From Baffinella frigidus (Eukaryota > Cryptophyceae > Cryptomonadales > Baffinellaceae), in assembly GCA_026770585.1 (NCBI GenBank), contig MU647225.1, positions 49,388-74,014 on the forward strand: 24,627 nt of DNA, written 5' to 3'. Shown one piece after another: positions 3,726 to 24,627 of the stretch. The notes beneath the pieces are model-generated. The model searched no databases. It saw only the letters and a list, made by a program, of their open reading frames with translations, and was not told the DNA's origin. The translations under genes and the position numbers were made by a program. Within the stretch, counting starts at the first letter, position 1. The number at the start of each line of letters is the position of its first letter.

Positions 3726-3887
3726 TACAGGGGTACCTCGCTCATAAAAAACCGCCTCCCCCTAGGACCCTACACTAGGGACTATGCCTAGGGCCCTATG
3801 GTGGTCCTAGGGGGGGGGCGGTTTCTTATGAGCGAGGTACCCCTGTCGAGGGGGGGGGCTGTTTCTTATGAGCGAGGTAACCCTGTC
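3726..3887. mobile_element. family A element with duplicated right half
   Basis: A complete family A copy (3726-3846) is followed directly by a second right-hand end (3847-3887), with the G-run and TTTCTTATGAGCGAGGTA repeated. This points to slippage or partial duplication at the G-run. Confidence 0.8.
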
Positions 3888-4004
3888 ACGGCAGCGTCTG
3901 CGGCAGCTGGCATCGTTCACTGACTCCACACCACTGCACCCCCCACCCCGCGCGTCCCGCGCGCCTCCAATTAATCGCACCACTGGATCGAATTGCATCG
4001 CCGC

Positions 4005-6728: not shown

Positions 6729-6862
6729 TTCTCAGGATGGCCTTTCGTTTTGATCAACTCCACCAGGCAAAGTGGACAGGACTTTGCAAAGTGGACACCC
6801 CCGAACCTCCGCCCCAAAACGAAAAAAAGGTCTCGAGCGTGCACCAAAAACCTCCAGCAACC
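6729..6862. promoter_or_regulatory. short divergent promoter of the unknown gene and RACK1
   Basis: Only 134 bases separate the two start codons, which point away from each other. The segment contains two copies of AAAGTGGACA (near 6770 and 6788) and a run of A after CAAAACG. No TATA box is evident. That it is a bidirectional promoter is inferred from geometry. Confidence 0.55.
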
Positions 6863-9814: not shown

Positions 9815-9846
9815 ATTGCTCTCTATCGACTCGCGGCGCTGGTGTA

Positions 9847-9871
9847 TGTAATGGGTAGCCAATCCAATAAA
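9847..9871 (+). promoter_or_regulatory. likely polyadenylation signals of RACK1
   Basis: TGTAA at 9847-9851 (the usual signal of green algae) and AATAAA at 9866-9871, 33-57 bases after the stop codon. Which one is used cannot be decided from sequence. Confidence 0.5.
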
Positions 9872-9921
9872 TTTCATCAGTGGATTTGCGTGTGGGCAGT
9901 GCCGTGCAGATCGTCGGTCGG

Positions 9922-10178
9922 TACAGGGGTACCCCGCTCATCAGAAACTGCCCCCACCCCCTGGGACCACCATAGGGCCCTAGCTACATGTACATGTAGG
10001 CATACTCCTACTGTACAGGGGTACCTCGCTCATAAGAAACCGCCCCCCCCTAGGACCCTCAGTAAGTCCATGCCTAGGGTCCTAGGGGGGTCCTAGGGGG
10101 GTGGGCGTTTCTTATGAGCGAGGTGCCCCTGTAGGGTCCTAGGGAGGGGCGGTTTCTTGTTGGCGAGGTACCCCTGTA
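9922..10178. mobile_element. family A element interrupted by a second family A element
   Basis: The outer copy runs 9924-10176 with flanking TA. It is split after CCTACTG by the inner copy (10016-10131). Rejoining the two sides across a single TA restores the CCTACTGTAGGGTCCTAGG motif found intact in other copies. Confidence 0.9.
10014..10133. mobile_element. nested family A element with TA target duplication
   Basis: The inner copy 10016-10131 is flanked by TA at 10014-10015 and 10132-10133. Because the host sequence is another copy of the same family, the empty site is known, so the duplicated target is directly read as TA. Confidence 0.92.
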
Positions 10179-10518
10179 AATGCATTTGATGGCGAGCCCA
10201 GTTTTTACTCATGACAGCGCATGTCCAGCCATGCCGCGCCAAGACGTGACTTATGAAGCCTAAGTCTTCTCTACGCACGCGTCACGCTGCGCGCCACTTC
10301 CTGTAGCCAAGTCGCTTTACAAGATCACTTCCCAAGAAGCAGCCTCGGTGCTTTACTATGCCAAAAGTAGAGTCCAGTGACTTTGGGCGATGCCCGCTCC
10401 TCAAGAACCAAGTACCGAGACGCCTCGCCAACCGCTCGGCCCTCCGACGTTGTGAGGACCGGGTCCTGGACGGGCCCACGCACCTCTTCGAGGTCGGGAC
10501 CAGCCCCGACTTCTCTCG
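10179..10518 (+). other. non-repeat stretch; possible degraded coding fragment
   Basis: A plus frame reads LLKNQVPRRLANRSALRRCE... to FEVGTSPDFS at about 10394-10513, which looks protein-like. It has no start, splice or family support and ends at the family A element. It could be a relic exon. Otherwise nothing is recognised. Confidence 0.2.
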
Positions 10519-10762
10519 TACAGGGGTACCTCGCTCATAAGAAACCGCCCCCCCCCCTAGGACCCCCCTAGGACCCTATCCCTTAAGTGCCCAGTAGGCA
10601 CATACGCCCTACGGTAGGGTCCTAGGACCTACCTAGGACCTCTTGGCCATCAAATTTGACGGCCTGGGCACTTAAGGGATAGGACCCACCTAGGACCCTA
10701 GGCATGGTCCTACTGTAGGGTCCTAGGGGGGTGCGGTTTCTTGCGAGTGAGGTACCCCTGTA
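10519..10762. mobile_element. family A element interrupted by a family B element
   Basis: The left part is 10519-10576 and the right part 10682-10762, with TA-flanked ends and the normal GGTCCTACTGTAGGGTCCTA core on the right. Family B (10579-10679) sits inside it, so this B copy is the younger of the two. Confidence 0.88.
10579..10679. mobile_element. family B element nested in family A
   Basis: TA duplications at 10577-10578 and 10680-10681. Ends TCCCTTAAGTG and CACTTAAGGGA. The variable hairpin GGCC-a-TCAAATTTGA-c-GGCC lies at 10645-10664. Confidence 0.9.
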
Positions 10763-11165
10763 CATGTAGCCCTTCGAGAGGCACGACCTCGTAGCCCTGA
10801 GAGTGGCACGAGCTTACTAGTGACAAGCAAGGCAGTTTGGCCTTGGGATCCCGAATTGAAGGATCCTGACACCACGACGTGAGCCTCGCTGTCGCTGTTC
10901 CAAGGGTGTCCTTGTACTGCTGTCACGTCCCGAAAATAGTAGTACCGGGCTGTAACAAGGCGGTACAAAAAGGTACAAGCCGGTACAAAAAGTTACTACC
11001 GTCACGTCCAAATAAGCCGTCCATCTATCATATAGGCCACACCCACAAGAATTTTCCAGGCTCTGACTGCAGGGGTGGAGATCCTCCCCGGCTGTGCGTC
11101 ACCCCACGCACTTCGCTACAGCGCAGAAGGGAGCGCACAAGGCCCATTCCTGACAACTCAGGCAG
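10763..11165. other. no gene seen
   Basis: Includes a short tandem of CGGTACAAAAAG (about 10961-10992). No element, splice-consistent exon or known family is recognised. Confidence 0.4.
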
Positions 11166-11175
11166 AGGCCTCTGT

Positions 11176-11270
11176 CTCCCCCTAGGACCCTACAGTAGGC
11201 CTATGCCTAGGGCCCTCTGGTGGCCCTAGGGGGGGGGGGGGCAGTTTCTTATGGGCGAGGTACTCCTGTA
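11176..11270. mobile_element. family A element, left end missing
   Basis: Keeps the CCTAGGACCCTACAGTAGGC core, poly-G run and right end (TTTCTTATGGGCGAGGTACT, then CCTGTA). The TACAGGGGTACC left end is absent. Confidence 0.75.
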
Positions 11271-11392
11271 GAGACAGGCCCTTACACGGGGACAGGGCAC
11301 GGGGCGTTTCCATGTGCATTCACTCGGGACCACGGATAAGCATTTTCTGCTTTACACTGGTGTAAAGCAAACACTGGTGTAAAGCGATCGTC

Positions 11393-11475
11393 CGAGAGGC
11401 CCGCCTCGGGACGGACAAGCCCGCCTCGGGACGGACAGGCCCGCCTCGGGACGGACAGGCCCGCCTCAGGACTAG
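11393..11475. repeat. 20-base tandem repeat, left segment
   Basis: About four units of GGCCCGCCTCGGGACGGACA. The same unit forms the array at 12844-12950 on the other side of the assembly gap and occurs again at 13480-13570. Confidence 0.85.
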
Positions 11476-11565
11476 TGGCTATGTCTCGAGGCAGTGGATT
11501 CACTTGAAAACCAGTGAAGTCACACCAAAAGGAGGCCTGGTCAAATGGCCCAGACATAGCCACTA
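11473..11565. mobile_element. 93-base inverted-repeat element in the array
   Basis: TAGTGGCTATGTCT and AGACATAGCCACTA form 14-base perfect inverted ends, TA included. It interrupts the 20-base array. An internal hairpin TTCACT-tgaaaacc-AGTGAA is present. Confidence 0.8.
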
Positions 11566-11599
11566 CATGTAGAGATAGGCCCGCCGCAGGGCTAGATTG

Positions 11600-11737
11600 C
11601 CACCAACCCTCATAGACTGGGCAAATCGGGAAAAATGGCTCCAAAAAATCCCGTGAAGGCCGTCGGATTCCGACGGCCTCCAATGGGATTTGGTGTTTTT
11701 GACTTTTTCGATTTGCCCAAGTTGTGAGGGTTGGTGG
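11600..11737. mobile_element. 138-base inverted-repeat element (CCACCAACCCTCA ends)
   Basis: Thirteen-base perfect ends CCACCAACCCTCA/TGAGGGTTGGTGG, then further pairing (GGGCAAATCG, CCCAT/ATGGG). The centre is a hairpin of nine pairs, GGCCGTCGG-att-CCGACGGCC, at 11658-11678. It is related by paired changes to the hairpin at 22523-22543. Confidence 0.85.
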
Positions 11738-11789
11738 TAAGAGGAGGGGCTCCAAGTGTTTTCATGTACATTCATTCGGGCCGCAGGGC

Positions 11790-11910
11790 TACAGGGTTAC
11801 CTCGTTCATAAGAAACCGCCATCCCCTACGACCCTACAGTAGGGCTATGCCTAGGGTCCTATGGTGGTGCTAGGGGGGGGGCGGTTTCTTATGAGCGAGG
11901 TACCCCTGTA
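11790..11910. mobile_element. family A element
   Basis: TACAGGGTTACCTCGTTCATAA left end and TTATGAGCGAGGTACCCCTGTA right end, with normal interior. Confidence 0.85.
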
Positions 11911-12023
11911 GATTAAGAGGAGGGGCTCCGAGCGTTTTCATGTACATTCATTCGGGACCACGGACACGCATTTTTCGCTTTACACGAGGTGCGACGTCCG
12001 AGAGGCCCGCCTCAGGACTGCAG

Positions 12024-12146
12024 TACAGGGGTACCTCGCTCATAAGAAACAGCCCCCCCCCCCTAGGACCACCATAGGGCCCTAGGCATAGGCCTACTGT
12101 AGGGTCCTAGGGGGGGCGGGTTTCTTATGAGCGAGGTACCCCTGTA
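12024..12146. mobile_element. family A element
   Basis: Complete copy with near-perfect ends. A further copy may begin at 12173 (TACAG) just before the gap. Confidence 0.87.
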
Positions 12147-12177: not shown

Positions 12178-12843
12178 NNNNNNNNNNNNNNNNNNNNNNN
12201 NNNNNNNNNNNNNNNNNNNNNNNNNNNNNNNNNNNNNNNNNNNNNNNNNNNNNNNNNNNNNNNNNNNNNNNNNNNNNNNNNNNNNNNNNNNNNNNNNNNN
12301 NNNNNNNNNNNNNNNNNNNNNNNNNNNNNNNNNNNNNNNNNNNNNNNNNNNNNNNNNNNNNNNNNNNNNNNNNNNNNNNNNNNNNNNNNNNNNNNNNNNN
12401 NNNNNNNNNNNNNNNNNNNNNNNNNNNNNNNNNNNNNNNNNNNNNNNNNNNNNNNNNNNNNNNNNNNNNNNNNNNNNNNNNNNNNNNNNNNNNNNNNNNN
12501 NNNNNNNNNNNNNNNNNNNNNNNNNNNNNNNNNNNNNNNNNNNNNNNNNNNNNNNNNNNNNNNNNNNNNNNNNNNNNNNNNNNNNNNNNNNNNNNNNNNN
12601 NNNNNNNNNNNNNNNNNNNNNNNNNNNNNNNNNNNNNNNNNNNNNNNNNNNNNNNNNNNNNNNNNNNNNNNNNNNNNNNNNNNNNNNNNNNNNNNNNNNN
12701 NNNNNNNNNNNNNNNNNNNNNNNNNNNNNNNNNNNNNNNNNNNNNNNNNNNNNNNNNNNNNNNNNNNNNNNNNNNNNNNNNNNNNNNNNNNNNNNNNNNN
12801 NNNNNNNNNNNNNNNNNNNNNNNNNNNNNNNNNNNNNNNNNNN
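12178..12843. other. assembly gap (N)
   Basis: 666 N. It lies between a likely family A start and the 20-base array, so it probably hides repeat sequence. Any reading frame drawn through it is meaningless. Confidence 0.99.
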
Positions 12844-12975: not shown

Positions 12976-13136
12976 CCACATAGCGGGCTAAGAAGGGATT
13001 TTCGGCCCATTCCGGGCCGAGTTTCCGCTACCTTGTCCGTAGGAACCCCCCTATGTCCCTACGGGTTGCCTACCGTAGGGTCCTCGGTCTTATCGCCTAG
13101 GGGCGATTCAAAACCCCTTCGAAGTCCGCTGTGTGG
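12976..13136. mobile_element. inverted-repeat element, family G (CCACATAGCGG ends)
   Basis: Left end CCACATAGCGGGCTA, right end TCCGCTGTGTGG. Internal hairpin CGGCCC-attcc-GGGCCG at 13003-13019, then a conserved segment GTTTCCGCTACCTTGTCCGT and CCCTACGG...CCGTAGGG. Other copies lie at 14495, 18703 and 19078. Confidence 0.8.
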
Positions 13137-13138
13137 GG

Positions 13139-13404
13139 AGCACACGAGACGTCCTTCTCCTGTTGGACCCACTAACCCTTGCTCATGCTCCACCCTGGAT
13201 GGAACATTATGGTATTTTGAGCATTCTTAAGTCAACTCCCCTTGAGATGCAGCCGCAATGCGGCTGCCCCGTGATGAATGGATCTGGTACAAAAAGGTCT
13301 AACATGTATTTTAGTGATACAAACTATGTCAACTTTTGCGATAAAGGGTTATTCGGGATTGGCCGCAAGTCCCCTCCAGGGTGGGTCGCTCCCGCCGGCC
13401 TTGT
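13139..13404 (-). pseudogene. duplicate of OB-fold gene exon 7, broken by an inserted element
   Basis: Acceptor CAG then ACAAGGCCGGCGGGAGCGAC at the right, and AGCATGAGCAAG... to GTCTCGTGTGCTCC at the left. These match the intact copy at 13569-13657. The family D element (13190-13384) splits it exactly between GAC and AGC, and the left part has an in-frame TAG. Not functional as read. Confidence 0.75.
13190..13384. mobile_element. inverted-repeat element, family D, with variable hairpin
   Basis: Ends CCACCCTGGA/TCCAGGGTGG. Hairpin GCAGCCGCA-a-TGCGGCTGC at 13249-13267. Comparison with uninterrupted exon 7 copies gives a precise insertion point with no visible target duplication. Confidence 0.88.
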
Positions 13405-13568: not shown

Positions 13569-16500
13569 CTAGGGTTGAGGGATTGGAGCGCACCAGACGT
13601 CTTTTTCCTGCTGCACCCACTGGACTTTGCTCATGCTGTCGCTCCCGTCGGCCTTGTCTGTGAAGGGAAAGCAGAACTGCAAGGAGGGTAGGGCTTGGGG
13701 TTAGGGATCAGGGTTTAGTGTAAAGAGACTCCGCCGCTCTGGGCGTGTAAAGCGGCTCAGTGTAAAGCGGCTCAATGGCTTTACAGGCGCGGAGAGGGGG
13801 GGCGGGTTGGGGTTTGGGGTGTGGGGTTCGCGTCTAGGGTTTGGGGTTTGAGGTTTGCTCATGCTGTCGCTCCCATCGGCCTTGTCTGTGAAGGGAAAGC
13901 AGAACTGCGGAGGAGAAGGGAGAGAGTTTAGGGTTCAGGTTTTGGGGTTTCGGATTTGGGGTTGAGGGTTCACTTCCGTCGGCCTTGTCAGTAAAGGGGA
14001 AACAGAACTGCGCGCGCGGAGGAAGAGGAGGGTTGGAGCCTGTGAACACGAACCAGAACCGCGCACAGTATAAAGAGACTCACCCGCTCTGGGCGTGTAA
14101 AGCGGCTCAGTGTAAAGCGGCTCAATGGCTTTACAGGCGCAGAGAGGGGGGGCGGGTTAGGGTTTGTTGTATGGGGCTCGCTTCTCAGGATCTGGGGGTT
14201 GGGGTTTGCTCATGCTGTCGCTCCCGTCCGAAATTTCTGTGAACGGGAAACAGAACTGCGCAGGCGGCGGGAGTGGGGGGGCACACCACTCGAGGCTAGA
14301 AGTGTGACTATTTTAAAACAGGGCTTCATTTACAAGTGATGGGGAAAAGAAATGTGTAGTAATTTTCATGCATATAGGGGCATTTGGTCACGTAGCTCAA
14401 GTTATAACTTGAGCTACGTGACCAAGCATGCCCGTGACTGGTACTAAATTTAACAGCCCCACATTTAAAATACCCCCTCTTCCAGCCTCGAGTGGACACA
14501 GCGGGCTATGACGGGGTTTTCGGCCCAAACTGGGCCGAGTTTCCGTTACCTTATCTGTAGGAGCCCCCTATGTCCCTACGGGTTGCCTACCGTAGGGTCC
14601 TAGGTCTTGTCGCTTAGGGGTTATTCGAAATCCCTTCGAAGTCCGCTGTGTGGGTAGGGTCTGTGAAGGGGACACCGAACGCGGAGGGACAGGGGTTTCA
14701 TCTCCATAGAAGTATTAATTAATTGCTTTCGACGTGACGAAATTTACTACACAAATGCTTTACTATTACTTTTATGAGCAAATCGTGTAGTAATTTTCGT
14801 TGCCCAGAAGCAATTGATTAATACTTATATGAAGATTAGGTTGGGGGTGAGGGTTCGCACGGGTAAGGGTTTAGGGCCACCCTGGAGGGGACTTGCGGCC
14901 AATCCCGAATAACCCTTTATCGCAAAAGTTGACAGGATGCGTACCACTAAAATACTTACAAGACCGTTTTGTACCAGATCCATTCATCACGGGGGACTGA
15001 GGGCTCAGTCCTTTTCAAGGGGAGTTGACTTAAAAATGCTCAAAATACCCCCACCCTGCCTCCAGGGTGGTTAAGAAACATAAATACGCACAGTATCCCT
15101 TAAGGTGCCAGCCGGTCAAAATTGACCCGCAAGAGGTCCTAGGCAGGTCCTAGGGCCCTACGGTAGGGCGTATGCGCCTGCTGGTCACTTAAGGGATAAA
15201 GCGGCTCAGTCGCTTTGCAGGCGGAGGGAGGGGCGGGTTCCAATCGAGGATGCCAGAGGGGCCTATTTACATGTGGGGTTGTAAACATTTGTACCAGGAT
15301 AGGGTGTTTCAACCTCGTGACTGTGCAAAATTTGCAGAGTTACGTGACCAATCAACGAAAGTTACTACACAAATGCCCACTTTTAAAAGCACATCGGTTT
15401 TAAATAGGCCCCTCTAGCATTCTCGTGTGGTTGGGCCACTTAGCAGCGGCCGAGTTGCTTTTCGCCTTGAATTCAAGGTGGAATTCCGGTTAGGTTCCAG
15501 GGCAATGGATAAGATTCTAGTACGAATCGATTAGATGGACTGTATCCGTAAAGCCTCTGGTGGCTGCTAAGTGGCTTGCGCCGAAATCTCGAACCCTAAA
15601 GCCTAAAGCCTACACCCTGAACCCCAAACCCTAAAGCCTGAACCCTAAACCCTAAACCCTAAACCCTAAACCCTAAACCCTAAACCTCACCCTAACCCCC
15701 GGGGGTTAGGGTGAGCACGGGTCAGGGTTTAGGGATTTTAGTACTGGGATTCTAGCACTAGTGATTTTAGTACTAGAAGCGCCCCACGTGTTCGCTAGAA
15801 AAAGGGGCAGTTTCTGACCCCTTTCCTAAGTCAATTCCTTCACAAAACCAACACCTTAGGTTGTAAGAACGAATCTTGGAGTTTAAAAAGATTTTGAAGT
15901 TTTAAAATTTGTGCCAGGAATTGACTTTCGGACTTACGAAAGGGGCCCGAAACTGGGGCCTTTTCTAGTTAGTGTGTTCCTTCACGTTTATCTCAGAAAA
16001 GGGATTTTTAAATTCGTTTTCTTAAGTCAATTCCTGTACAAATTCGTCAACTTATTCTTTTCTCTGCGCATAAGTTGACAAAATTGAAGGGGAGTTGACT
16101 TAAGAAAACGAAATTAAAAATCCCTTTTCTGAGATAAACGTATGCTGTTCCCGGGCACTCATGCAAAAAGCTAACGCCAGCGAAGTACTTAGAGCCTACG
16201 GCGTGCCTACGGTAGGTGCCCCCCTCCTACGACTTTTAAAGACCTTGTTTTAAACGTCGTAGGAGGAGGGGGGGGTCCTACCGTAGGCTAAGGGGTCCGC
16301 TGGCGTTAGCTTGTGGCATTAGCACGATACCAAGTTAGTCGCGAAACCTTTGGAAAGTTCAGTAGTTTCTCCTACGGCATTGCCTAGGACCTCCTACCGT
16401 AGGCCAAAATCCTAGGACATTTTGGTCCTAGGAGCCCTACAGCCTACGGTAGGCAGGTCCTACCTAAATCCGTAGGGAAACTATCGAACTTTCCGAAGGT

Positions 16501-19500
16501 TTCCCTATGAAAGTGTGTTGTCTAGCTCTGCCTGCGTACAACTGTGCCATAAAACACATTTAGAGCAGAAACTGCGGTACAAAAGGGTATAAAACACGTT
16601 GCCATAAAACACATTTAGCCGTAAAACACATTTAGAGCAGAAACTGCGGTACAAAAGGGTACCTAAAATACATTTATGGTGCGCCCAGTTTTACTGAAAC
16701 AGCGCTAGGTTATTCCCGGACACGATGACACCCGAGAGAACTACTGGACCTCTAGAGTCCGTCTTTCGATTTCTAGGAAAGCCTTGCCGAGGCTTCAACG
16801 GCTCCAATTCCCACAACGTTCGAGGGCATTTTACCCTGTAAACAACTTTTACCCCGTCTACAACCACCTTACGGCCGAAATCGAAAGGTGGGTTCTGGAG
16901 GTTCAGTAGAAGGGACACGACCTCCCCCGCTCCAAAGTTCACGGGTTTGTAGCGCACACCCAGCATGTCAACTTGAGAATCGTCTGGACAGTCAGCCCGA
17001 GTGAGGGCAGAGCAAGGACCTCCCCCGTCCGCTCAATCACATGATGACTCTGTAGTGTGTTGTTCCCGGACATGATGACATTAGAGTGTGGTGTTCCCGG
17101 ACACGATTATACTCGAGTGTGTTGTTCCCGGACATGATGACACTCGAGTGTGTTCTACACGGACGTGATGACACCGAGAGGAGGGACATGACCTCCCCCG
17201 TCCGCTCAATCTTCCCGAGCTTCCCCGCGTAGAGCGTGCTCGCCCCTTTGTAAAGCGCACAGTAGCTGATTAAGGTTTAGGGTTCAGGGTTCAGGGTTTG
17301 GGGTTTGGGGTTTGGGGTTTGGGGTTTGGGGTTGAGGTTTGGGGTTTGGGGTTTGGGGTTTGGGGTTTGGGGTTCAGGGGTTAGGGTTGAGGGGTTAAGG
17401 TTGAGGGTTGAGGGTTGAGGGTTTGGGGTTTAGGGATTAGGGGGTTCGCCCCTTTGTAAAGCGCACAGTACCTGTCGGTTTGGGGTTTGGGGTTCAGGGT
17501 TCGGGGGTTCAGGGGTTAGGGGTTAGGGGTTAAGGTTGAGGGTTGAGGGTTCGGCCCTTTGTAAAGAGCGCAGTACCTGGCTGTTTAGGGTTTAGGGTTT
17601 AGGGTTTGGGGTTTGGGGTTTGGGGTGTAGGGTTTGGGGGTTGGGGCTTAGGGCTTAGGGTTGAAGGTGTAGGGTTTGGGGTGTAGGGTTTAGAGTTCGG
17701 GGCTTAGGTTTAAGTGGTTTATGGATTAGTGTTGTGTTTAGTGTTCAGTGTTCAGTGTTCAGTGTTTAGTGTTTAGTGTTTAGTGTTCAGTGTTGAGTGT
17801 TTAGTGTTTAGTGTTTAGTGTTTAGTGTTGAGTGTTGAGTGTTTAGTGTTGAGTGTTGAGTGTTTAGTGTTTAGTGTTTAGTGTTTAGTGTTTAGTGTTG
17901 AGTGTTGAGTGTTTAGTGTTGAGTGTTGAGTGTTTAGTGTTTAGTGTTTAGTGTTTAGTGTTCAGTGTTTAGTGTTGAGTGTTTAGTGTTGAGGGTTTAG
18001 TGTTTAGTGTTTAGTGTTTAGTGTTTAGTGTTGAGAGTTTGGGGTTTGGCGTTCACGGTTCAGCGTTTAGGGCGGATTCCATACCACCCTAGATTTTACG
18101 CGGAGCAATTGTAAAAAACAATGGCTCCAGTAGAGTCCCTCTCAGGGACTTTCGATCCACTTTTGGCGTGTATTCCCCCTAAAATCCGAGAAATTGACTT
18201 TTGCGATTGCTCCTCGTCCGATCTTGGGTGGTGTACGTAGCAGACACGTAGCATCCAGCCTTTGGGTTTAAGGTGTCGGCCAGGGTCTAGGGTTGAGGGT
18301 TGAGGGTTCAGGGCGTAGGGTATAGGGTTTAGGGTTTAGGGCGTAGGGTTTAGGGTGTAGGGTTTAGGGTTTAGGGTTGAGCGTTTAGGGGTTAGGGTTT
18401 GGGGTTTAGGGTTTAGGGGCTAGGGGTTAGGGATGCACCCTCCAGTGAGGCGGATGATGTCCCCCGGCTGCACTAGCTCCCCGTTTCAGGATTTCGGTTT
18501 CAGGGTGTCGGGTTCAAGGTTAGGGTTAAGGGTTTAGGGGTGCAGGGTTGAGGGTGCCCGAAACCCTCAGAGTTAGACAGTGGAGGTCTCCTACCCGCTG
18601 GTCAGCCGGATGATGTCCCCCGACTTTTGAGGGTTTAGGGGTTAGGGTTGCACCCTTCCAGTAAGGCGGATAATGTCCCCCGACTTTCAGGGTAAGGGGT
18701 GTCCACACAGCGGGCTACGAGGGGATTTTCGGGCAGGAAATGCCCGAGTTTCAGTTACCTTATCCGTAGGAACCCCCCCTACCCCCCTATGGGGATTTTT
18801 TTGTGATAGGGAGGCACCCGCCAGTCAGCCGCTACTGAAAAGCCCCAGGGGAAGTGTCAAAAAGTAGCGGACACTCTGGTGTCCTATACTTTTGAGCCAT
18901 TTTCTCCTCAAAAGGCAATTTTCACCCCCAAGGACGTGACCAAAATTCGTCAAAAGGTAACCTACAAGTAATTTTAGTGTCGTGTCCAAGAATTTTGAGA
19001 CTTCCTCTGGGGCTTTGCAGTAGCGAATGATGTCCCCTGGCTGGACTAGCTCCCCGTAGGCGTCGAACAGTGACGCGTCCCGAGTTTCCGTTACCTTATC
19101 CGTAGGAACCCCCCTATGCCCCTACGGGTGGCCTACCGTAGGGTCGTGGGTCTTGTCGCTTAGGGGTTATTCAAAATCGCTGAGGGGTTATTCAAGATCC
19201 CTTCGAAGTTCGCTGTGTGGGAGGGTTGCACCCTCCAGTGAGGCGGATGATGTCCCCTGGCTGGACTAGCTCGCCGTAGGCGTCGAATAGTGACGCGTTC
19301 CTGGGTGAGGGTGTCGGGTTGAGGGTTGAGGGTTTAGGATTTGGGGTTTAGGGGTTAGGGTCTGGGGTTTGGGGTTTGGGGTTTAGGGGTTAGGGCTTGG
19401 GGTTTAGGGTTTAGGGTTTAGGGTTTAGGGATTAGGGTTCAGGGTTTGGGGTTTAGGGTTTAGGGTTTGGGGTCTGGGGTTTGGGGTTTGGGGTTTAGGG

Positions 19501-22500
19501 GTTGGGGGTGAGGGTTTAGTGTTTCGGGTTTCGGGTTTCGGGTTTCGGGTTTGGGGGTGAGGGTTTAGGGTTTAGTGTTTCGGGTTTGGGGTTTGTGGTT
19601 TCGGGTTTTGGGGTCAGGGGTTACATCTTGGCCGTGTTGTCCCCGACCACGATGTGGTGCACGGTGTTGCCCTCCTTGGTCCCCGACGTCGACACTGTCT
19701 CAGGGTGTAGGGTTCAGGGTTAAAAAAAGAACAGGGTAGCGGCATGAATCCAGGGTGGTCAAGCCTACGGTACGGACTACGGTAGGCAGTAGGACGGTCC
19801 CTAGCGCTCCTGAGAGAACCCCGGGAGGCTGTGGTGCTGCCAGCCTTCGTCCCCGATGTCGACACTGTCTCCGGGATTTAGGTTCAGGGCTCAGGAACTG
19901 AACTCAGGGTTCAGGAACTGGACTCAGGGTTCAGGAACTTGACTCAAGGTTCAGGAACTGAACAGAATAACGGCCTATATCCAGGGAACTGAAGAGGATA
20001 ACGGCCTAAATCCAGGGTAGTTGAGGGTTAGGTTTCAGGGTTGAGGCGTATGGCGTGCTCGCCCCCTTGTAAAGCGCGCAGTACCTAACGATTAGGGTTG
20101 AGGGATTCGTGCGCGGAGGGGTGGGGGGGGGGCACAGGTTTAGGGTTGAGGGTTGAGGGTTGAGGGCTTAGGGGTTGGGGTGGAGGGTTCGGTGTGGTGC
20201 ACGGTGTTGCCCTCCTTCGTTCCCGATGTCGACACTGTCGCAGGGTTAAGTGTTTAGGTTCAGAGAGAGAAAAGTGCGCGTTTATTACGGGTCGAAACGG
20301 ACATGGCCACCATGTATACGGAGTTTAGGGTTTCGGGTTGAGTGTTTTGTGTTTAGGGTTTAGGGTTTAGGGTTCAGGGTCTAGGGTTTAGGGTTTAGGG
20401 TTTAGGGTTTAGGGTTTAGGGTTTGGGGTTTGATGTGGTGCACGGTGTTGCCCTCCTTGGTCCCGGACGTCGACACTGTCGCCAGGTTTAGGGTCTATGG
20501 TTGAGGATGTAGGGTTGAGGGTTTAGGGTTTGGGGATTTGTGCGAATGAACAGCGTGTTGGTGATCTTAGGGACCCGAGGGGTTTAGGTTTCGGGGATGA
20601 GGGTTGAGCGCTCGCCTTTAGGGTTTAGGGTTCAGGGTTCAGGGTTTAGGGTTTAGGGTGTGGGTTCAGGGTTCAGGGTCCAGGGTTTATGGTGTAGGGT
20701 TTGGGTTTAGGGTTTATGGTTTAGGGTTAATGGTTTAGGGTTCAGGGTTTAGGGTTAGGTTTTAGGGATTGGGGTTCAGGGTTTAGGAATTAGGGTTTAG
20801 GAATTAGGGTTAAGGGTTTGGGGTTTAGGGTTTGGGGGTTGGGGTTTAAGGTTTAGGGTTTAGGGTTTAGGGTTTAGGATTTAAGGCTCGAGCGTAAAGA
20901 AGAAGAAGAAGATCATGGTTCAACGCTTTGGATCCACGCCATGTCACAAGTGGGAATTTCACACGCGACGTTTCGCGCTAAAAGTGTTTCGTGGTACAAA
21001 AAATCATTGTAGCGCCCAGTAACGGCTCCAATTCCCAACACTTTGGGCGTGTTTCCCGGGTAGAATTAACTTTACCCGTAGATGGTGTAGTAAAATGAAA
21101 TCCGACTTATGACCTGGCGTGGTACCCTAAACCACGAACCTAAATGGACCGTCCTGCGAAGCCCACCCAAACAGGGCGCTACGTGGGGGTATTCCAGGGT
21201 CGCCCTTTGAGCCATTGGGTCGCCCTTGGAGCTGTTTTCTTCTCAAAATTGACTTTTGAATACCGTTTCCCCCTAAAAAATGACTTTGAAATACCCCCCC
21301 CTCCAGCCCTGCGTGGTGTGTGGCAGGGTAGAGGGGGAGAACAGAGGGACTGGCGTTCGAAGAGCACACAGAGGACTACGGACCTTTCATCAAAAGTCAA
21401 CTTACCCTGTGGGGAGTTATTTTTAAGGATTTTCTGGTGCAACTTTGGTCACGTTACCGCTAAATCGTTGCTGCCATAAACGCGAGAAGGTTCGCAGACA
21501 CACTCACCAAAAGTTGACGGTGCTGGGACTAAACCGTCAACTTTCGCCAGGGTTTGACCTTTGTCGAGGACGATGAACTGCGTGTTGATGATCTTGTCGC
21601 CGGGTCGGATCGAGTTGAACTTCTTCCATTGTCTGTTCAGGGTTCAGGGTTCAGGTTCGAGCCGTCAGAGGGGAGCACATCCTCGCTGTCGAGACACCTC
21701 CTTACATGCTTTGTGCACTTTGCACCACTGGTCGGATCGAGTTGAACTTCTTCCATCGTCTGTTCGGGTTCAGGGTTCAGGTTTTGGGGCTTCGGGTTTC
21801 GGGTGCGGGGTTGAACTTTTCCATTGTCGGTTGGGGTTCAGGCCCTTGAGGGTTAGTGTTCAGGTTTTAGAGGGTTAGGGTTCGGGGTTCGGGTGTTCGG
21901 GGTTAGGGGTTAGGGTTGGGATTCGGGGTTAGGGGTTAGGGTTGGGATCGTGTCGCCTGGTCGCATCGAGTTGAACTTCTTCCATTGTCTGTTGAGCGTT
22001 TCGGGGCGGGGTTCAGGTTTTAGCTCTCAGAGTGGGAGCAAATCCTCTTTGTCGAGACACCTTACCTCCCCACTCGAGGCTGGAAGAGGGGGTATTTTAA
22101 ATGTGGGGTTGTTAAATTTAGTACCAGTCACGGGCATGCTTGGTCACGTAGCTCAAGTTATAACTTGAGCTACGTGACCAAATGCCCCTATTTCAATGAA
22201 AATTACTACACATTTCTTATTTCCCCTTCACTTGTAAAAGAAGCTCTGATTTAAAAAAGTCACACTTCTAGCCTCGAGTGGCCTTTGCACCACTGGTCGC
22301 CGGTTCAACGTTCATATTTTGGTGGTTTCGGGTTTCGGGTGCGGGGTTGAACTTTTCCATTGTCTGTTGGGGTTTGGGCCCATTAGGGTTAGTGTTCAGG
22401 TTTTAGGGGGTTAGGGTTCGGGGTTGGGGTGTTCGGGGTTAGGGGGTAGGGTTGGGATTCGGGTTTCAGCCCTCAAGAGTGGGAGCAAATCCTCTTTGGA

Positions 22501-23488
22501 GAGACACCTCCTTGGCACCACTGGTCGCCGGATTCCGGCGACCTCCAGTACAAACCAAGGGGATTGAAAAAGGCGATTTGACCACGGCGCGGGCTGGTGG
22601 GAGGCAGGATTGCAGCAGCGCTCCAGCCTGGAGCTGAGTAGGGGTTAAATCGTTGAATAACCCTCGATCTCAAAAGTTGACAGATTTGTACTACTACAAT
22701 ACTTTTACGCCTTTTTGTACCAGAAATCATTCATCACGACCGCGAGGAATCCTCGCGGTTTTGTGGGCAACGTGATCTTAAGTTGCCAAATATACCCTGG
22801 GGTCAACTCGAGGCCGGCTGTACAAGAATAGCTCTGATGCAGGCGGGTTGGCCGACTTTAGTCAAGTTAACGTTCACGTTCTGGAGTTACATCCGTCAAC
22901 TTTGGAGCGAAACCGAGCCCGGTCTCACCACATTGGAGAGCACATGAGAGCTAGGGGGGAGGGGCGCTACTTGTCCGCGATGGGCTCGTTGCCTCCTATT
23001 CCGGCGACCTCGAACAAACCAAGGGGATTGAAAAAGGCGATTTGCGATAACTGCGAGGGCTTGAGGCAGGAAGGATTCCAGCAGTGCTCTGTACAAGAAT
23101 AGCTCTGCCTAAGAGCTGGGGGGAAGGGGCGCTACTTGTCTGCGATGGGCTCCTTCCAGATGGTCGCGTTGATGTAGCGCTGGAACAGCTGCACTTAGGG
23201 TTTAGGGTTTAGGGTTCAGATTGAGGGTGCAGCCAAATGTTCAGTTTGAAGGGGGTTCCGAGACGTACACGCGCTGGCATGGGTGGGAGATCGACAGCAC
23301 AGCGCAGCCGCTACACGCAGATTCCCTCCGGGGGCTCGCAACCCCCTCCGCGTGCTGGCTACACGCCACGATCTCCTCAAACGCCGGGTGCAGAGTGGGC
23401 CGCCGAGCTGCGTTCATCAGAGACTCACCGCCTTGTCGGTCCCCGGCCCCACGCTGTTGGCGGGGAGGGATATGTGTTGCTTCGACAT
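13569..23488 (-). CDS. OB-fold single-strand DNA-binding protein, SOSS-B/NABP (hSSB)-like, seven exons, 171 aa
   Basis: Exons 23488-23429, 23188-23136, 21632-21559, 19694-19625, 19300-19232, 17265-17165 and 13657-13569 join in frame (60+53+74+70+69+101+89 = 516 bases). The protein starts MSKQHISLPANS. Exons 3-6 carry the OB fold in order: FNSIRPGDKIINTQFIVLDK, TKEGNTVHHIVVGDNTAK, LFDAYGELVQPGDIIRLTG, then YCALYKGASTLYAGKLGKIE and RTGEVM. This matches the SOSS-B plan (PG...FIVLE, G.....VAD.T, LIQPGDIIRLTKGY, FKGCLTLYTGRGG, IGEF.M). Family members bind ssDNA in break repair, transcription termination complexes and, in mammals, at newly replicated telomeres. Donors and acceptors are GT-AG, and 3' splice tracts are mostly telomere-like (CCCTAAA/CCCTGAA). 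Exons 1-6 are well supported by phase and homology. The exon 6 donor (17164, alternative 17174) and exon 7 are tentative, because that C-terminal tail (DGSDSMSKVQWVQQEKDVWC) has no known counterpart. Confidence 0.85.
13847..13875 (-). pseudogene. acceptor-edge copy of exon 7
   Basis: ttcacag then ACAAGGCCGATGGGAGCGAC, breaking off after AGCATGAGC into telomere-like CCTCAAACCCC. Lies upstream (minus-strand sense) of the intact exon. Confidence 0.8.
13971..13988 (-). pseudogene. short acceptor-edge copy of exon 7, acceptor lost
   Basis: ACAAGGCCGACGGAAGTG, preceded by a matching pyrimidine tract, but with TG in place of the AG acceptor. Runs into CCCTCAACCCC. Confidence 0.65.
14208..14236 (-). 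pseudogene. acceptor-edge copy of exon 7
   Basis: ttcacag then AAATTTCGGACGGGAGCGAC, ending at AGCATGAGC and telomere-like sequence. First bases differ from the intact exon, which makes in-frame use unlikely. Confidence 0.7.
14286..14495. mobile_element. inverted-repeat element, family E, with 42-base perfect palindrome
   Basis: Ends CCACTCGAGGCTAGAAG/CTTCCAGCCTCGAGTGG. The centre (14384-14425) is a perfect palindrome, each arm 21 bases beginning TTGGTCACGTAGC. Second copy at 22070-22281 in the other orientation with an identical palindrome, and a diverged copy at 15240-15430. Confidence 0.9.
14495..14652. mobile_element. family G element
   Basis: GGACACAGCGGGCTA to TCCGCTGTGTGG. Hairpin CGGCCCA-aac-TGGGCCG at 14521-14537. 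Abuts the family E element. Confidence 0.78.
14701..14832. mobile_element. AT-rich inverted-repeat element
   Basis: TCTCCATAGAAGTATTAATT at the left pairs with AATACTTATATGAAGA at the right. A second inner pair is ACTACACAAATGC/GCAAATCGTGTAGT. Its low GC contrasts with the surroundings. Confidence 0.75.
14877..15070. mobile_element. family D element, inverted copy, different hairpin
   Basis: Ends CCACCCTGGA/TCCAGGGTGG. The interior is nearly the reverse complement of 13190-13384, but the hairpin is GGACTGAG-gg-CTCAGTCC at 14994-15011, unrelated in sequence. Confidence 0.9.
15096..15196. mobile_element. family B element
   Basis: TA duplications at 15094-15095 and 15197-15198. Hairpin GGTCAA-aa-TTGACC at 15114-15127. 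Confidence 0.87.
15240..15430. mobile_element. diverged family E element with replaced palindrome
   Basis: The last 22 bases of each end pair well (GCCAGAGGGGCCTATTTA class). The right-centre keeps GTTACGTGACCAA and ACTACACAAATGCC seen in the other two copies. The 42-base palindrome is absent and a short TGCAAA-a-TTTGCA hairpin (15324-15336) is present instead. Confidence 0.7.
15435..15575. mobile_element. 141-base inverted-repeat element (GCCACTTAGCAGC ends)
   Basis: Thirteen-base perfect ends GCCACTTAGCAGC/GCTGCTAAGTGGC. Contains the palindrome CCTTGAATTCAAGG near 15465. Confidence 0.85.
15597..15685 (-). repeat. telomere-like array, C-rich strand on plus
   Basis: Five to seven good CCCTAAA units at 15640-15684 with variants before them. 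This is the only C-rich-on-plus array between RACK1 and 24 kb. Confidence 0.9.
15686..15715. repeat. 30-base perfect palindrome at a telomere-repeat orientation switch
   Basis: CTCACCCTAACCCCC followed by its exact complement. Left of it the array reads CCCTAAA, right of it the sequence reads TTAGGG-like. Confidence 0.93.
15795..15968. mobile_element. inverted-repeat element (CTAGAAAA ends)
   Basis: CTAGAAAAAGGGGCAGTTTC pairs with GAAACTGGGGCCTTTTCTAG. A GTCAATTCC/GGAATTGAC inner pair follows. Non-coding. Confidence 0.78.
15985..16140. mobile_element. 156-base element with ~46-base near-perfect ends
   Basis: From CGTTTATCTCAGAAAAGGG to its complement ending GAGATAAACG. The two ends continue pairing through CGTTTTCTTAAGTCAA/TTGACTTAAGAAAACG, so the element can fold into one long hairpin. 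The inner part has GTCAACTTAT/ATAAGTTGAC. Confidence 0.88.
16169..16312. mobile_element. inverted-repeat element (AGCTAACGCCAGCG ends)
   Basis: AGCTAACGCCAGCG/CGCTGGCGTTAGCT ends, then GCCTACGGTAGG and its counterpart CCTACCGTAGGC, and CCTCCTACGACTTTTAAA pairing with TTTAAACGTCGTAGGAGG. Confidence 0.85.
16343..16503. mobile_element. inverted-repeat element (GAAACCTTTGGAAAGTTC ends)
   Basis: Eighteen-base ends with one mismatch, then CCTACCGTAGGC/GCCTACGGTAGG and an inner CCAAAATCCTAGGAC...TTTTGG fold. Same CCTACGGTAGG core as family B and 16169-16312. Confidence 0.85.
16544..16680. repeat. imperfect tandem duplication (CATAAAACACATTTAG)
   Basis: Two long copies of taaaacacatttagagcagaa...actgcggtacaaaagggta plus two short copies of CATAAAACACATTTAG. 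Confidence 0.8.
16681..17040 (-). pseudogene. edge fragments of OB-fold gene exon 6
   Basis: On minus, 17037-17018 reads ATTGAGCGGACGGGGGAGGT like exon 6. 16930-16900 reads GGAGCGGGGGAGGTCGTGTC, a diverged version. 16738-16711 reads TCTCTCGGGTGTCATCG, like the exon 6 end and donor. All lie downstream of intact exon 6 in the transcript. Confidence 0.55.
17041..17160 (-). repeat. ~32-base tandem copies of the exon 6 donor edge
   Basis: On minus, units of TGTCATCATGTCCGGGAACA alternate with ACACTCGA. Each keeps TCATCAY/GTCCG, the proposed exon 6 donor context (GT at 17164-17163). Four units, one diverged. Confidence 0.65.
17447..17471 (-). pseudogene. acceptor-edge copy of exon 6
   Basis: cgacag then GTACTGTGCGCTTTACAAAG, breaking off after GGGGCG into CCCC/CTAA repeat. 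It lacks the rest of exon 6. Confidence 0.85.
17552..17576 (-). pseudogene. acceptor-edge copy of exon 6
   Basis: agccag then GTACTGCGCTCTTTACAAAG, breaking off after GGCC into CCCTCAACCC. Confidence 0.85.
17720..18046 (+). repeat. TTTAGTG variant array with higher-order period
   Basis: About 45 heptamers, nearly all TTTAGTG, TTGAGTG or TTCAGTG, in place of GGG forms. With A=TTGAGTG and B=TTTAGTG, the order AABAABBBBB repeats at 17828-17897 and 17898-17967 (last unit of the second has one change): a 70-base higher-order unit. Confidence 0.93.
18083..18232. mobile_element. inverted-repeat element (ACCACCCTAGATTT ends)
   Basis: ACCACCCTAGATTTTACGCGGAGCAATTG-type left end (first 18 bases ACCACCCTAGATTTTACG) pairs imperfectly with CGATTGCTCC...GATCTTGGGTGGT. 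Hairpin GTCCCT-ctc-AGGGAC near 18137-18151. Confidence 0.8.
18281..18440 (+). repeat. telomere-like array, intron 5
   Basis: TTTAGGG/TTGAGGG/GTGTAGGG heptamers. No coding evidence. Confidence 0.85.
18439..18483 (-). pseudogene. donor-edge copy of exon 5
   Basis: On minus, GGGGAGCTAGTGCAGCCGGG through ATCCGCCTCACTGGAGG to donor GT. Keeps GELVQPGDIIRLTGG and the donor. The 5' part and acceptor are missing. Confidence 0.85.
18595..18622 (-). pseudogene. donor-edge copy of exon 5
   Basis: On minus, GGGGACATCATCCGGCTGAC then CAGCGG/gtagga. Only GDIIRLTSG and the donor remain. Confidence 0.8.
18654..18686 (-). pseudogene. donor-edge copy of exon 5
   Basis: On minus, GGGGACATTATCCGCCTTAC then TGGAAGG/gtgcaa. 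Only the GDIIRLT end and donor remain. Confidence 0.8.
18703..18805. mobile_element. family G element, right part missing
   Basis: CCACACAGCGGGCTA left end. Hairpin CGGGCA-ggaaa-TGCCCG at 18730-18746. Loses homology after CCTATGGGG. Confidence 0.75.
18818..19077 (-). pseudogene. donor-edge copy of exon 5 split by an inserted element
   Basis: On minus, GACGCGTCACTGTTCGACGC through GGGGACATCATT (19077-19026), then the element, then GGCTGACTGGCGG/gtgcct (18830-18818). Removing the element restores GDIIRLTGG and the donor. Confidence 0.85.
18830..19025. mobile_element. inverted-repeat element inserted in an exon 5 copy
   Basis: CGCTACTGAAAAGCCCCAG pairs with CTGGGGCTTTGCAGTAGCG. Hairpin GGACAC-tctg-GTGTCC at 18869-18884. 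The two-base CG at both edges looks like the target duplication, by comparison with the uninterrupted copies. Confidence 0.88.
19078..19221. mobile_element. family G element, left part missing
   Basis: Starts inside the family at CGAGTTTCCGTTACC and ends TTCGCTGTGTGG. A TTAGGGGTTATTC segment is duplicated. It replaces the 5' part of the adjacent exon 5 copy. Confidence 0.75.
19301..19624 (-). repeat. intron 4 of the OB-fold gene, almost wholly telomere-like
   Basis: A 324-base intron between exon 4 (TAK-AT/gtaacc) and exon 5 (acccag/G). On the sense strand it is a run of CCCTAAA, CCCCAAA and CCCGAAA heptamers from donor to acceptor, with nothing else. Confidence 0.9.
19830..19864 (-). pseudogene. 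acceptor-edge copy of exon 4
   Basis: agacag then TGTCGACATCGGGGACGAAG, departing from exon 4 after GGCAGCACCA. Lies upstream of intact exon 4. Confidence 0.8.
19873..20040. repeat. short tandem of GGTTCAGGAACTGGACTCA
   Basis: Four 19-base units at about 19885-19963, then a duplicated GATAACGGCCTA segment. Intronic, function unknown. Confidence 0.7.
20056..20084 (-). pseudogene. acceptor-edge copy of exon 6, displaced into intron 3
   Basis: cgttag then GTACTGCGCGCTTTACAAGG, ending after GCGAGCACGCC. The only acceptor-edge copy lying outside the intron that ends at its parent exon. Confidence 0.75.
20193..20234 (-). pseudogene. acceptor-edge copy of exon 4
   Basis: gcgacag then TGTCGACATCGGGAACGAAG, matching exon 4 to CACCGTGCACCAC, then repeat. 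VSTSGTKEGNTVHH is still readable. Confidence 0.87.
20432..20475 (-). pseudogene. acceptor-edge copy of exon 4
   Basis: gcgacag then TGTCGACGTCCGGGACCAAG, matching to GTGCACCACATC, then AAACCCCAAACCC. Breaks within three bases of the copy at 20193. Confidence 0.87.
20542..20568 (-). pseudogene. internal fragment of exon 3
   Basis: On minus, AAGATCACCAACACGCTGTT then CATTCGC, matching the KIINTQFI part of exon 3. No splice site attached. Confidence 0.6.
20886..21500. other. no gene seen; old repeat remnants
   Basis: Has acggctccaattcccaacac, shared with 16797-16817, and a segment (21180-21310) with inverted GGGGGTATTC/GAATACC words and a tttgagccattttctcctca-like stretch shared with 18890. 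Probably a decayed inverted-repeat element. Intronic to the OB-fold gene. Confidence 0.5.
21510..21544 (-). promoter_or_regulatory. hairpin just inside intron 3 after the exon 3 donor
   Basis: AAAGTTGACGG and CCGTCAACTTT form an 11-pair stem with a 13-base loop, 14 bases downstream of the donor GT (21558-21557) in the transcript. It may be a relic of the GTTGAC fold-back repeat. A splicing role is only a possibility. Confidence 0.5.
21730..21759 (-). pseudogene. acceptor-edge copy of exon 3
   Basis: cgaacag then ACGATGGAAGAAGTTCAACT, breaking off after CGATCCGACC. Upstream of intact exon 3. Confidence 0.85.
21811..21828 (-). pseudogene. short acceptor-edge copy of exon 3, acceptor lost
   Basis: ACAATGGAAAAGTTCAA follows CCG in place of CAG, then breaks into CCCC repeat. 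Confidence 0.7.
21946..21988 (-). pseudogene. acceptor-edge copy of exon 3
   Basis: caacag then ACAATGGAAGAAGTTCAACT, matching to GGCGACACGATC, then CCCAACCC. The longest of the exon 3 copies. Confidence 0.87.
22070..22281. mobile_element. family E element with 42-base perfect palindrome
   Basis: Reverse-orientation copy of 14286-14495 with the same palindrome (22140-22181). Inserted into a family F remnant whose two sides (GAGACACCTT and TTTGCACCACTGGTCGCC) are found joined near 21700 and 22510. Confidence 0.9.
22346..22363 (-). pseudogene. short acceptor-edge copy of exon 3
   Basis: caacag then ACAATGGAAAAGTTCAAC, then CCCGCACCCG repeat. Shares the AAAAG spelling with the copy at 21811. 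Confidence 0.75.
22467..22620. mobile_element. family F remnant with nine-pair hairpin
   Basis: AGCCCTCAAGAGTGGGAGCA left end. Hairpin GGTCGCCGG-att-CCGGCGACC at 22523-22543. Then ACAAACCAAGGGGATTGAAA, shared with 23010-23040. Confidence 0.75.
22640..22806. mobile_element. diverged family D element, third hairpin
   Basis: Shares AATAACCCT...CAAAAGTTGACA, TTTTGTACCAGA and CATTCATCACG with the other two copies. The hairpin is ACCGCGAGGA-a-TCCTCGCGGT at 22739-22759. Terminal repeats are eroded. Confidence 0.82.
22969..22990 (-). pseudogene. donor-edge copy of exon 2
   Basis: On minus, AACGAGCCCATCGCGGACAA followed by gtagcgcc, the same donor context as intact exon 2 (donor at 23135-23134). Only the end of exon 2 remains. 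Lies downstream of it. Confidence 0.8.
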
Positions 23489-23628: not shown

Positions 23629-24506
23629 ATGGCGTCTTGCGGCCCAGGCGCAGAGGTTTGCGCCGCGCGGAGGCGACGAGAGAGCGGGGAGACGGCGGGC
23701 TTCCACGAGGCAGCTTGGAGCGTGCACAGTGCTGCGCCTGTAGGGGCGCCACCAGCGTCAAAAAAAAGAGACTCGCATCTGGCGGTGGGCACTCGCCGGC
23801 GTGTTCAGCGCGATGAGGAGAGGTCGCCGGCAACATCTTGGGGCTGCAGCACTGACGGTACCGTCAACGCGTCGGATGCCGTGGTTCCGAAGAGCGTGCG
23901 TCGCGCGTTTGGAGGCACCGCCTTCCGCAGCGCGCTATGCGTTTTGGTCCTGCTCTCAACTCTCACGGGAGCAGCCGGGGCAGAGAGAGGGGCTGAAGGA
24001 GACGCTGCTGGGCGGGGGGGTGGAAATGGGGCGGGCGGGGGTGGGAGTGCGGGGGGGCAGGGCGCCGAGCTCGCTCCAAGACAGGCGATAGACGACTGGT
24101 CGCCTTCTCAGGTACCAACCCTGATGGAGCGTTTTGATCGTTTGAAAGCTGGCTGATTTGTACCCTAAACCCTCAACCCGAATCCCTAATCCGTAAACTA
24201 CGCCCCCTAAAGCCTACACCCTAAACCCTGCACCCTACACAACACCCTAAACCCTAAACCCTGAACCCTAAACTGTAAACCCAAACCCGAAACCCGAAAC
24301 CCGAAACCCGAAACCCTAATCTCTAAACACTAAACACTAAATACTAAACCCCTGAACCTGACAACCTAAACCCGAAACCTCAAACCCTAAACACTAAATA
24401 CTAAACCCTAAACCCTAAACCCTAAAACCCTAAACCCTAAACCCTAAACCCCAAACCCCAGGTCGCACACTGGCTCGACAAGATCGGGGCAGAACTCGAC
24501 GACCCT
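23629..24506 (+). CDS. 5' part of a SAM-like domain gene, runs past the window
   Basis: Proposed exons 23629-23655 (MASCGPGAE), 24085-24111 (AIDDWSPSQ) and 24462-24506 (VAHWLDKIGAELDDP), all phase 0, then donor gtaagc and an intron that continues beyond the window. DDWSPSQVAHWLDKIGAE fits the start of a SAM domain (W..  .V..WL..IG), a protein-protein or RNA-binding fold. The split of this motif across the intron at 24112-24461 is well supported. The first exon and its intron (23656-24084) are less certain: the same frame stays open from 23629 to 24111 and reads a hydrophobic stretch (ALCVLVLLSTLTGAAGA) that could be a signal sequence, or simply an intron pyrimidine tract. The 3' part is not in the window. 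Confidence 0.5.
24112..24461 (-). repeat. telomere-like intron of the SAM-like gene
   Basis: 350 bases, of which 24163-24461 is nearly all CCCTAAA, CCCGAAA and ACACTAAA heptamers. Donor CAG/gtacc, acceptor cccag/GTC. Sense strand is C-rich. Confidence 0.88.
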
Positions 24507-24627
24507 GTAAGCCTCAAACCCTAAACCCTAAATCTTAAACCCTAAACCCTAAACCCCAAACCCTAAACCCTAAACCCCAAACCCCAAACCCTAAACCCCA
24601 AACCCCAAACCCCAAACCCCGAACCCC
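24507..24627 (-). repeat. telomere-like repeat at window end, start of the next intron
   Basis: gtaagcctcaa followed by CCCTAAA and CCCCAAA heptamers to the last base. C-rich strand on plus, so not a chromosome end in this orientation unless the window is cut inside it. Confidence 0.88.

Follow-up and report, generated by a model that had tools for sequence, protein, structure and literature searches.

We analyzed a window of 24,627 nucleotides (positions 49388-74014 of contig C851, its final third, in a 382-Mb assembly), which carries on its minus strand a gene that we assign, on sequence grounds, to a cryptophyte SOSS-B (hSSB1-like) protein. The introns of this gene contain truncated copies of its own exons, nearly all of which keep either the acceptor or the donor edge of the parent exon; the feature is real, and we found it in further genes of the genome as well. 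Copies that keep the acceptor edge lie upstream of the intact exon in the transcript, and copies that keep the donor edge lie downstream of it. These edge copies are probably the product of frequent short tandem duplications over exon-intron borders.

The product of the minus-strand gene aligned over residues 45 to 133 to the OB-fold of SOSS-B1, also known as hSSB1 (PDB 5d8f chain A, E 4.7e-20), which is its best match among solved structures, and it matched two Pfam OB models, both under their cut-offs. The OB-fold is thus common to the alga's protein and to hSSB1 (SOSS complex subunit B1), whereas the cryptophyte version has its own N terminus. The joined exons are 90% identical to P0121, a 180-amino-acid protein of a relative from a transcript database (MMETSP source), and this alignment is gap-free from KQH onward, over the joins of exons 1 to 6 (E1 to E6). 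The C-terminal part of P0121 places E7 about 3 kb past the range 16711..22990 that a sequence-only reading of the window had given for the feature, so that this exon lies outside the range and not near 16711. The resulting exon model is as follows.

23488-23429, minus strand: E1 (MSKQHISLPANSVGPGTDKA), no copies found
23188-23136, minus strand: E2, intact, with CCCTAAA heptads ahead of its acceptor
21632-21559, minus strand: E3, intact
19694-19625, minus strand: E4, intact
19300-19232, minus strand: E5, intact
17265-17193, minus strand: E6, intact
13676-13594, minus strand: E7, intact (FCFPFTDKADGSDSMSKVQWVQQEKDV; FCFPFTDKADGSDSMSK...), placed by P0121

GT donors are present at E1 to E6 and AG acceptors at E2 to E7; the E7 donor, GTGCGC, is assumed, the next exon not having been located. 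A last exon (WVPKQNG-like) was looked for beyond E7 and not found, and it may lie in an N gap or farther on; a run of 666 N bases occupies window positions 12178-12843. An open frame past E6 (17190-17040, with 30-base repeats) was rejected as the last exon, because P0121 continues with FCFPFTDK, which was found at 13676. Intron 6 also contains tandem repeats of about 30 bases with a GTGTCATCATGTCCGGGAACAACACACTCGA-like unit (window 17039-17173 and 16709-16736).

For the search for copies in SOSS-B, the exons with 40-base flanks were aligned to the gene on both strands, and each copy was then inspected. This yielded 13 truncated acceptor-edge copies (four of E3 and three each of E4, E6, and E7), all 13 upstream of the intact exon, and five donor-edge copies (one of E2, three of E5, and one of E6), all five downstream. 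The acceptor-edge counts and their position are exactly those of the sequence-only reading, which had also correctly seen one E6 copy in an earlier intron, at 20046-20104 in intron 4. Its donor-edge count agrees with ours for E2 and is too high by one for E5, since the fourth copy (19081-19023) has neither donor nor AG. The copies do keep their splice edges, as had been proposed, with AG retained in 12/13 acceptor-edge copies and GT in 5/5 donor-edge copies; only one copy (21842), and not two, has lost the AG. The retained splice sites are putative decoys, and the copies putative poison exons. The single-edge copies are listed here in transcript order of the parent exon.

22947-22990, minus strand: E2 donor-edge copy (exon base 34 to intron +24), downstream, GT retained
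22346-22368, minus strand: E3 acceptor-edge copy (to base 19), upstream, sister of the 21842 copy
21946-22032, minus strand: E3 acceptor-edge copy (to base 43), upstream, with a 37-base flank, partly non-heptad
21810-21842, minus strand: E3 acceptor-edge copy (to base 19), upstream, AG changed to CG
21730-21783, minus strand: E3 acceptor-edge copy (to base 30), upstream
20432-20502, minus strand: E4 acceptor-edge copy (to base 44), upstream
20190-20274, minus strand: E4 acceptor-edge copy (to base 43-45), upstream
19833-19889, minus strand: E4 acceptor-edge copy (to base 32), upstream
18644-18680, minus strand: E5 donor-edge copy (from base 44), downstream
18593-18620, minus strand: E5 donor-edge copy (from base 44), downstream, with the weakest match of all (E 0.006)
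18429-18484, minus strand: E5 donor-edge copy (from base 24), downstream
20046-20104, minus strand: E6 acceptor-edge copy (to base 39), in intron 4
17551-17620, minus strand: E6 acceptor-edge copy (to base 26), upstream
17446-17506, minus strand: E6 acceptor-edge copy (to base 26), upstream
17017-17038, minus strand: E6 donor-edge copy (from base 55), downstream, absent from the sequence-only reading
14205-14259, minus strand: E7 acceptor-edge copy (to base 51), upstream
13970-14011, minus strand: E7 acceptor-edge copy (to base 38), upstream, with six synonymous and no other changes
13854-13943, minus strand: E7 acceptor-edge copy (to base 51), upstream

Three further pieces fall outside this pattern; the first and the third of them were absent from the sequence-only reading.

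20546-20568, minus strand: E3 internal piece (38-60), downstream, outside the simple rule
19023-19081, minus strand: E5 copy of bases 1-58, downstream, without AG or donor
13428-13385 and 13189-13137, minus strand: whole second copy of E7, downstream, split by a mini-element

The bare SOSS-B exons gave 20 matches in introns at E<=0.01 (exceptions included), whereas 50 dinucleotide shuffles averaged 0.06 matches and never exceeded 1. We dropped E4 matches at 17139, 17077, and 10480 (antisense) and an E7 match at 14670, with E values of 0.26-0.83, as well as an E4 match at 13988 whose E value was 5e-4 and which comprised just 13 exon bases and heptad flank. The region is highly repetitive and the window includes the N gap, as an assembly or chance artefact would have it; given the shuffles, a side rule common to nine contigs (see below), and copies that are 80-100% identical to the parent exon and mostly short of identical, such an artefact is hardly credible. 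Nor did we find the unlinked paralogue that the sequence-only reading had named as a competing source: in the part of the assembly that the search covered, P0121 gave 11 matches, all at the SOSS-B locus. SOSS-B DNA 17000-17300 likewise matched that locus only, and neither sequence showed the dispersal expected of introners.

Break points that occur twice in SOSS-B are E3 base 19, E4 base ~44, E5 base 44, E6 base 26, and E7 base 51, and the E7 copies at 14259 and 13943 have a common 90-base downstream flank (95.6% identity). Because several copies have common break points, some may be copies of copies. Intron-only stretches of SOSS-B are likewise duplicated locally, as expected if local duplication is a general process; exon edges may therefore be its visible part.

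To these data we added 13 further genes, namely, RACK1 (for comparison), five proteasome genes (from a Pfam search of the assembly that gave six exon matches, read as five genes), and seven cyclophilin genes (from an assembly search with twelve matches over nine contigs, seven of which we examined). The stretch seen per proteasome or cyclophilin gene was 1.1-3.5 kb, with exon ends read from the sequence; both strands were searched in SOSS-B and in the proteasome genes C53 and L040, and the same strand only in L042-L048. Edge copies are carried by eight of the 13 genes. Among the proteasome genes, three acceptor-edge copies precede one exon of C53 and one donor-edge copy follows a different exon of it, and L040 has one acceptor-edge copy, upstream. 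Among the cyclophilin genes, we found one donor-edge copy in L042, six edge copies across three exons in L044, three donor-edge copies in L045, one acceptor-edge and one donor-edge copy flanking the same exon in L046, one copy of each kind in L047, and three edge copies in L048. No edge copies were found within 1.5 kb of the match in the proteasome genes L036, L037, and L038, in the stretch examined of the cyclophilin gene L043, or at E<=0.01 in the introns of RACK1. A piece of the 3' end of the last RACK1 exon lies directly downstream of that gene (window 9888-9923), and terminal exons may thus shed edges too. Two further details were noted in the cyclophilin genes. In L042, two exon copies (1244-1307 and 1482-1545) have an apparent end between CAGTA and C, with no GT where expected, and both still read as cyclophilin protein. 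In L046, a 330-base direct tandem repeat with 90% identity follows the exon (1319-1967).

Across the nine genes, which lie on nine contigs, 19/19 acceptor-edge copies are upstream and 21/21 donor-edge copies are downstream of the parent exon, and the equal occurrence on both sides by which the sequence-only reading had proposed to refute itself was not seen. With the ambiguous copy at 19081 counted as acceptor-edge, and so as one breach, the side rule has a Fisher p of 8e-11. Not all copies are independent events, and we therefore also collapsed the break points, for SOSS-B, C53, and L040 only, which gave 13 to 1 versus 0 to 5 (p 5e-4). All 40 counted single-edge copies are on the same strand as their parent and at a distance of at most ~3 kb, and both edge kinds occur around one exon, acceptor before and donor after, in SOSS-B E6 and in L046. 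Homology reaches into non-heptad intron flank at E3 22032, E2 22990, L044 1867-1940, and L045 883-943; flank homology within heptads cannot be judged. These counts leave out a C53 copy (d2) seen by eye only and without a BLAST listing, an L048 copy at 1749 that matches another copy and not the exon, short pieces noted on visual inspection in L044 (~937), L047 (~553 and 1806), and L048 (~752), repeats with a donor edge that open the L046 stretch and have no parent in view, and the RACK1 terminal piece. Selection is an unlikely source of the side rule, since a decoy in an intron, whatever exon it comes from, always has a true donor before it and a true acceptor after it.

The process that we favor would run as follows. 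Short local tandem duplications of tens to hundreds of bases would arise frequently near the borders of exons and introns, and CCCTAAA-like heptads or mini-elements would often fill the joint. If the two breaks fell inside the exon and inside a flanking intron, the exon would stay whole and a truncated copy would be added, which would be an acceptor-edge copy upstream of the exon if the upstream intron is involved and a donor-edge copy downstream of it if the downstream intron is involved. Such a duplication would be tolerated, as the intact exon, kept by selection, would still splice, and repeated rounds would add more edges, so that introns would grow by exon-edge shedding. The E6 copy in intron 4 would require either a duplication of greater extent, one E5 being lost afterwards, or another route, and mini-element insertion may trigger some of the events. 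Tandem duplication with one exon break and one intron break was also the cause put forward in the sequence-only reading, and the side rule supports it in outline. What we observed directly are the copies, edges, and sides in nine genes, the intron-only duplications of SOSS-B, and the codon differences outside SOSS-B, which fit neutral decay; the route of repair or replication, the sequence in which the events occurred, and the spliceosome's tolerance of the duplications are our inferences.

Heptads precede all six SOSS-B acceptors from E2 to E7, and they lie mostly on the sense strand: sense versus antisense counts of CCCTAAA-like heptads are 156 to 17 over SOSS-B, 14 to 0 in RACK1, 188 to 15 over 12 other loci, and 35 to 0 at window 23950-24627, where we read the gene as being on the plus strand. 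Against this trend, antisense heptads (12) outnumber sense ones (9) in SOSS-B intron 6, with a sizeable antisense array at window 15590-15700, and the count at window 4120-5990 is 5 to 5. In 11/13 acceptor-edge copies of SOSS-B, the sequence passes from the break directly into heptads (>=15/21 bases matching), which holds for 23% of positions drawn at random from the gene. The telomere-like tract noticed at the copy edges in the sequence-only reading is indeed a common joint filler, but it is not required, because the 1114 bases seen of L045 carry three donor-edge copies and not one heptad. Interstitial telomeric repeats are built of CCCTAAA-like heptads; the alga's heptads are alike in motif and differ in being degenerate, intronic, and mostly on the sense strand. 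Because their orientation mostly tracks the sense strand of the gene, we set telomere healing aside as their origin; they look like an iterated branch-site and pyrimidine signal instead, and a link with acceptor function (C-rich tract, CTAA-type branch sequence) is plausible.

The heptads also raise the question of template switching, in which strand invasion between heptad tracts and copying that breaks off would drop an acceptor edge into any nearby tract. Their presence before each of these acceptors and after most breaks, the E6 copy in intron 4, and the weak microhomology at the joints all fit such a process. However, it predicts no side preference and is weakened by the side rule, it needs a separate cause for the donor-edge copies, and the three copies of L045 occur in a stretch free of heptads, all of which makes it very improbable.

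Several observations weigh against short tandem duplication as the whole explanation. No edge copy was seen in 5/14 genes within the stretch seen, and outside SOSS-B the exon ends and the choice of the intact copy were judged from sequence alone. The three pieces outside the pattern in SOSS-B do not follow from it in a simple way: the E3 internal piece, the E5 copy at 19081-19023, which is fused to the end of a mini-element, and the whole second E7, which has GG in place of the AG acceptor and an in-frame TAG. A simple stack, in which the nearest copy is the youngest, is only a rough fit in E6 and E7, where the nearest copy is the least changed, and misfits E3, where the order is mixed, and E4, where it is reversed. 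Joint microhomology is weak (14 versus 7.9 expected, P 0.036 under a corrected null); an earlier result of strong microhomology (P 0.0002) was dropped, as the first null ignored break-point assignment. To these points are added the mini-elements that adjoin several copies and the excess of synonymous differences in SOSS-B, which bear on two other explanations.

A mini-element of ~140-170 bases (CCACACAGCGG...CCGCTGTGTGG) occurs at the following sites and stands repeatedly beside exon copies.

window 12978-13140, 14496-14657, ~18693-18793, and 19080-19226: CCACACAGCGG...CCGCTGTGTGG mini-element
L044, L045, L047, and L048: CCACACAGCGG...CCGCTGTGTGG mini-element

A CACACAGCGG-type mini-element separates the intact exon end from a copy in SOSS-B E5 (~19080-19226, copy 19081), in L044 (ahead of the copy at 1867), and in L048 (~1077-1216, copy at 1246); a member of the same family at 12978-13140 directly abuts the whole E7 copy at its end. 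Introner- or MITE-like mini-elements might therefore insert at exon-intron borders and make unusually long target duplications, the edge copies being the far halves of the duplicated target, and the geometry would again be that of a tandem duplication. Element-driven growth of this kind nevertheless seems unlikely as the general cause, since most SOSS-B and C53 copies have no mini-element adjacent and are joined to heptads, the duplicated stretches have a wide range of lengths, and the element at 14496-14657 has no exon copy beside it.

If copies decay neutrally and the exon changes at synonymous sites only, about 0.39-0.42 of the codon differences between them should be synonymous. Outside SOSS-B, where the count includes the C53 copy d2, 39 differences were synonymous and 42 were not (p 0.12 versus neutral), consistent with neutral decay of ordinary shed copies. 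In SOSS-B, the numbers were 48 to 20, against ~0.39 expected (p 2e-7, with the observed transition bias), or 37 to 20 with variants in common collapsed (p 8e-5, and 5e-4 under the harshest setting); 21842 is not in this count, being the sister of 22368, and the exceptions 20568, 19081, 13428, and 13189 are, with 12 to 6 among them. The synonymous ratio of SOSS-B differs from that of the other genes (p 0.007), and its excess is present in E4 to E7 and absent in E3 (1 to 5). Simple shedding with neutral decay cannot fully explain this excess, which implies a coding past of the copies or another source. Possible causes are exchange with a diverged haplotype, former complete second exons, or faster synonymous change in the exons. 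No second allele or paralogue that would account for it was found in the assembly, where RACK1 exon 2 had itself as its single match.

The excess would be expected if the copies were leftovers of whole tandem exon duplicates, long spliced as mutually exclusive exons and later truncated. A whole second E7 is present, and the lengths of E2, E3, E4, E6, and E7 are not divisible by 3, so that double inclusion would shift the frame. Truncation should, however, leave either edge on either side, whereas the side rule is nearly absolute; the other genes show no significant synonymous excess, and the copies are truncated, the only whole one having lost its AG and carrying a stop and an insertion. We consider such an origin improbable.

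A bolder extension of the duplication reading is that edge shedding is the main route of intron growth genome-wide and that shed edges stay active, trading roles with the exon in SOSS-B while the spliceosome chooses among many duplicate sites; this we regard as doubtful. If the exchange of roles were true, today's exon would be one of several coding-competent lineages. 

Apart from this extension, the introns of the alga carry a readable record, in which each truncated exon edge keeps the orientation given by the event that produced it, and intron growth thereby becomes testable one gene at a time. They also offer a natural experiment in splice-site choice, with a true site set against near-identical putative decoys a few hundred bases off.

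The window also carries RACK1 on the plus strand (6862-9815). Among the 120 matches listed for it, the best named match by identity is from Guillardia theta (83% over the full length), with Goniomonas at 78%, and one plant protein (64%) outranks Guillardia theta by E value; judged from this one gene, the genome is most likely a cryptophyte nuclear genome. Relatives were sought in viral and prokaryotic collections, with none confirmed, and Rfam gave no match. An exon-like segment is repeated with differing truncations near heptads at window 108-155, 350-418, 509-577, and 790-824. Palindromic mini-elements with arms like GGGGTACCTCGCTCATAAGAAAC around a CCTAGGACCCTA core occur at window 3821-12142 (six arms at <=4 mismatches and further ones by eye), with lookalikes seen by eye in L037, L042, L043, L045, and L048. 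A 212-base element forms an inverted pair, 95% identical, at window 22070-22281 and 14286-14495, both in SOSS-B introns.

The lengthening of introns is usually ascribed to transposon insertion or slow expansion. Short tandem duplications from staggered-break repair in plant genomes are direct and local and have variable filler at the joint, and in all these respects the alga's copies resemble them; to our knowledge, no exon-edge series or intron-building role has been claimed for the plant duplications. Introners are dispersed repeat families with splice signals that create new introns. They are like the alga's copies in being repeated, carrying splice signals, and adding to introns, but introners make new introns and are dispersed, whereas the alga's copies are exon specific and enlarge existing introns. 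Both introners and introner-like elements are named in PMC3488318. By title or abstract, no description of an intronic exon-edge series appeared among the papers listed, a scope mostly outside the subscription journals. What is new looks to be the scale of the pattern and not the elementary step. Tandem exon duplication, treated in PMC6071210 together with the origin of mutually exclusive exons, likewise involves local tandem duplicates that span exons and adjacent intron; there, whole exons are duplicated and used, whereas the alga's copies are truncated, one-edged, and serial, beside one intact exon.

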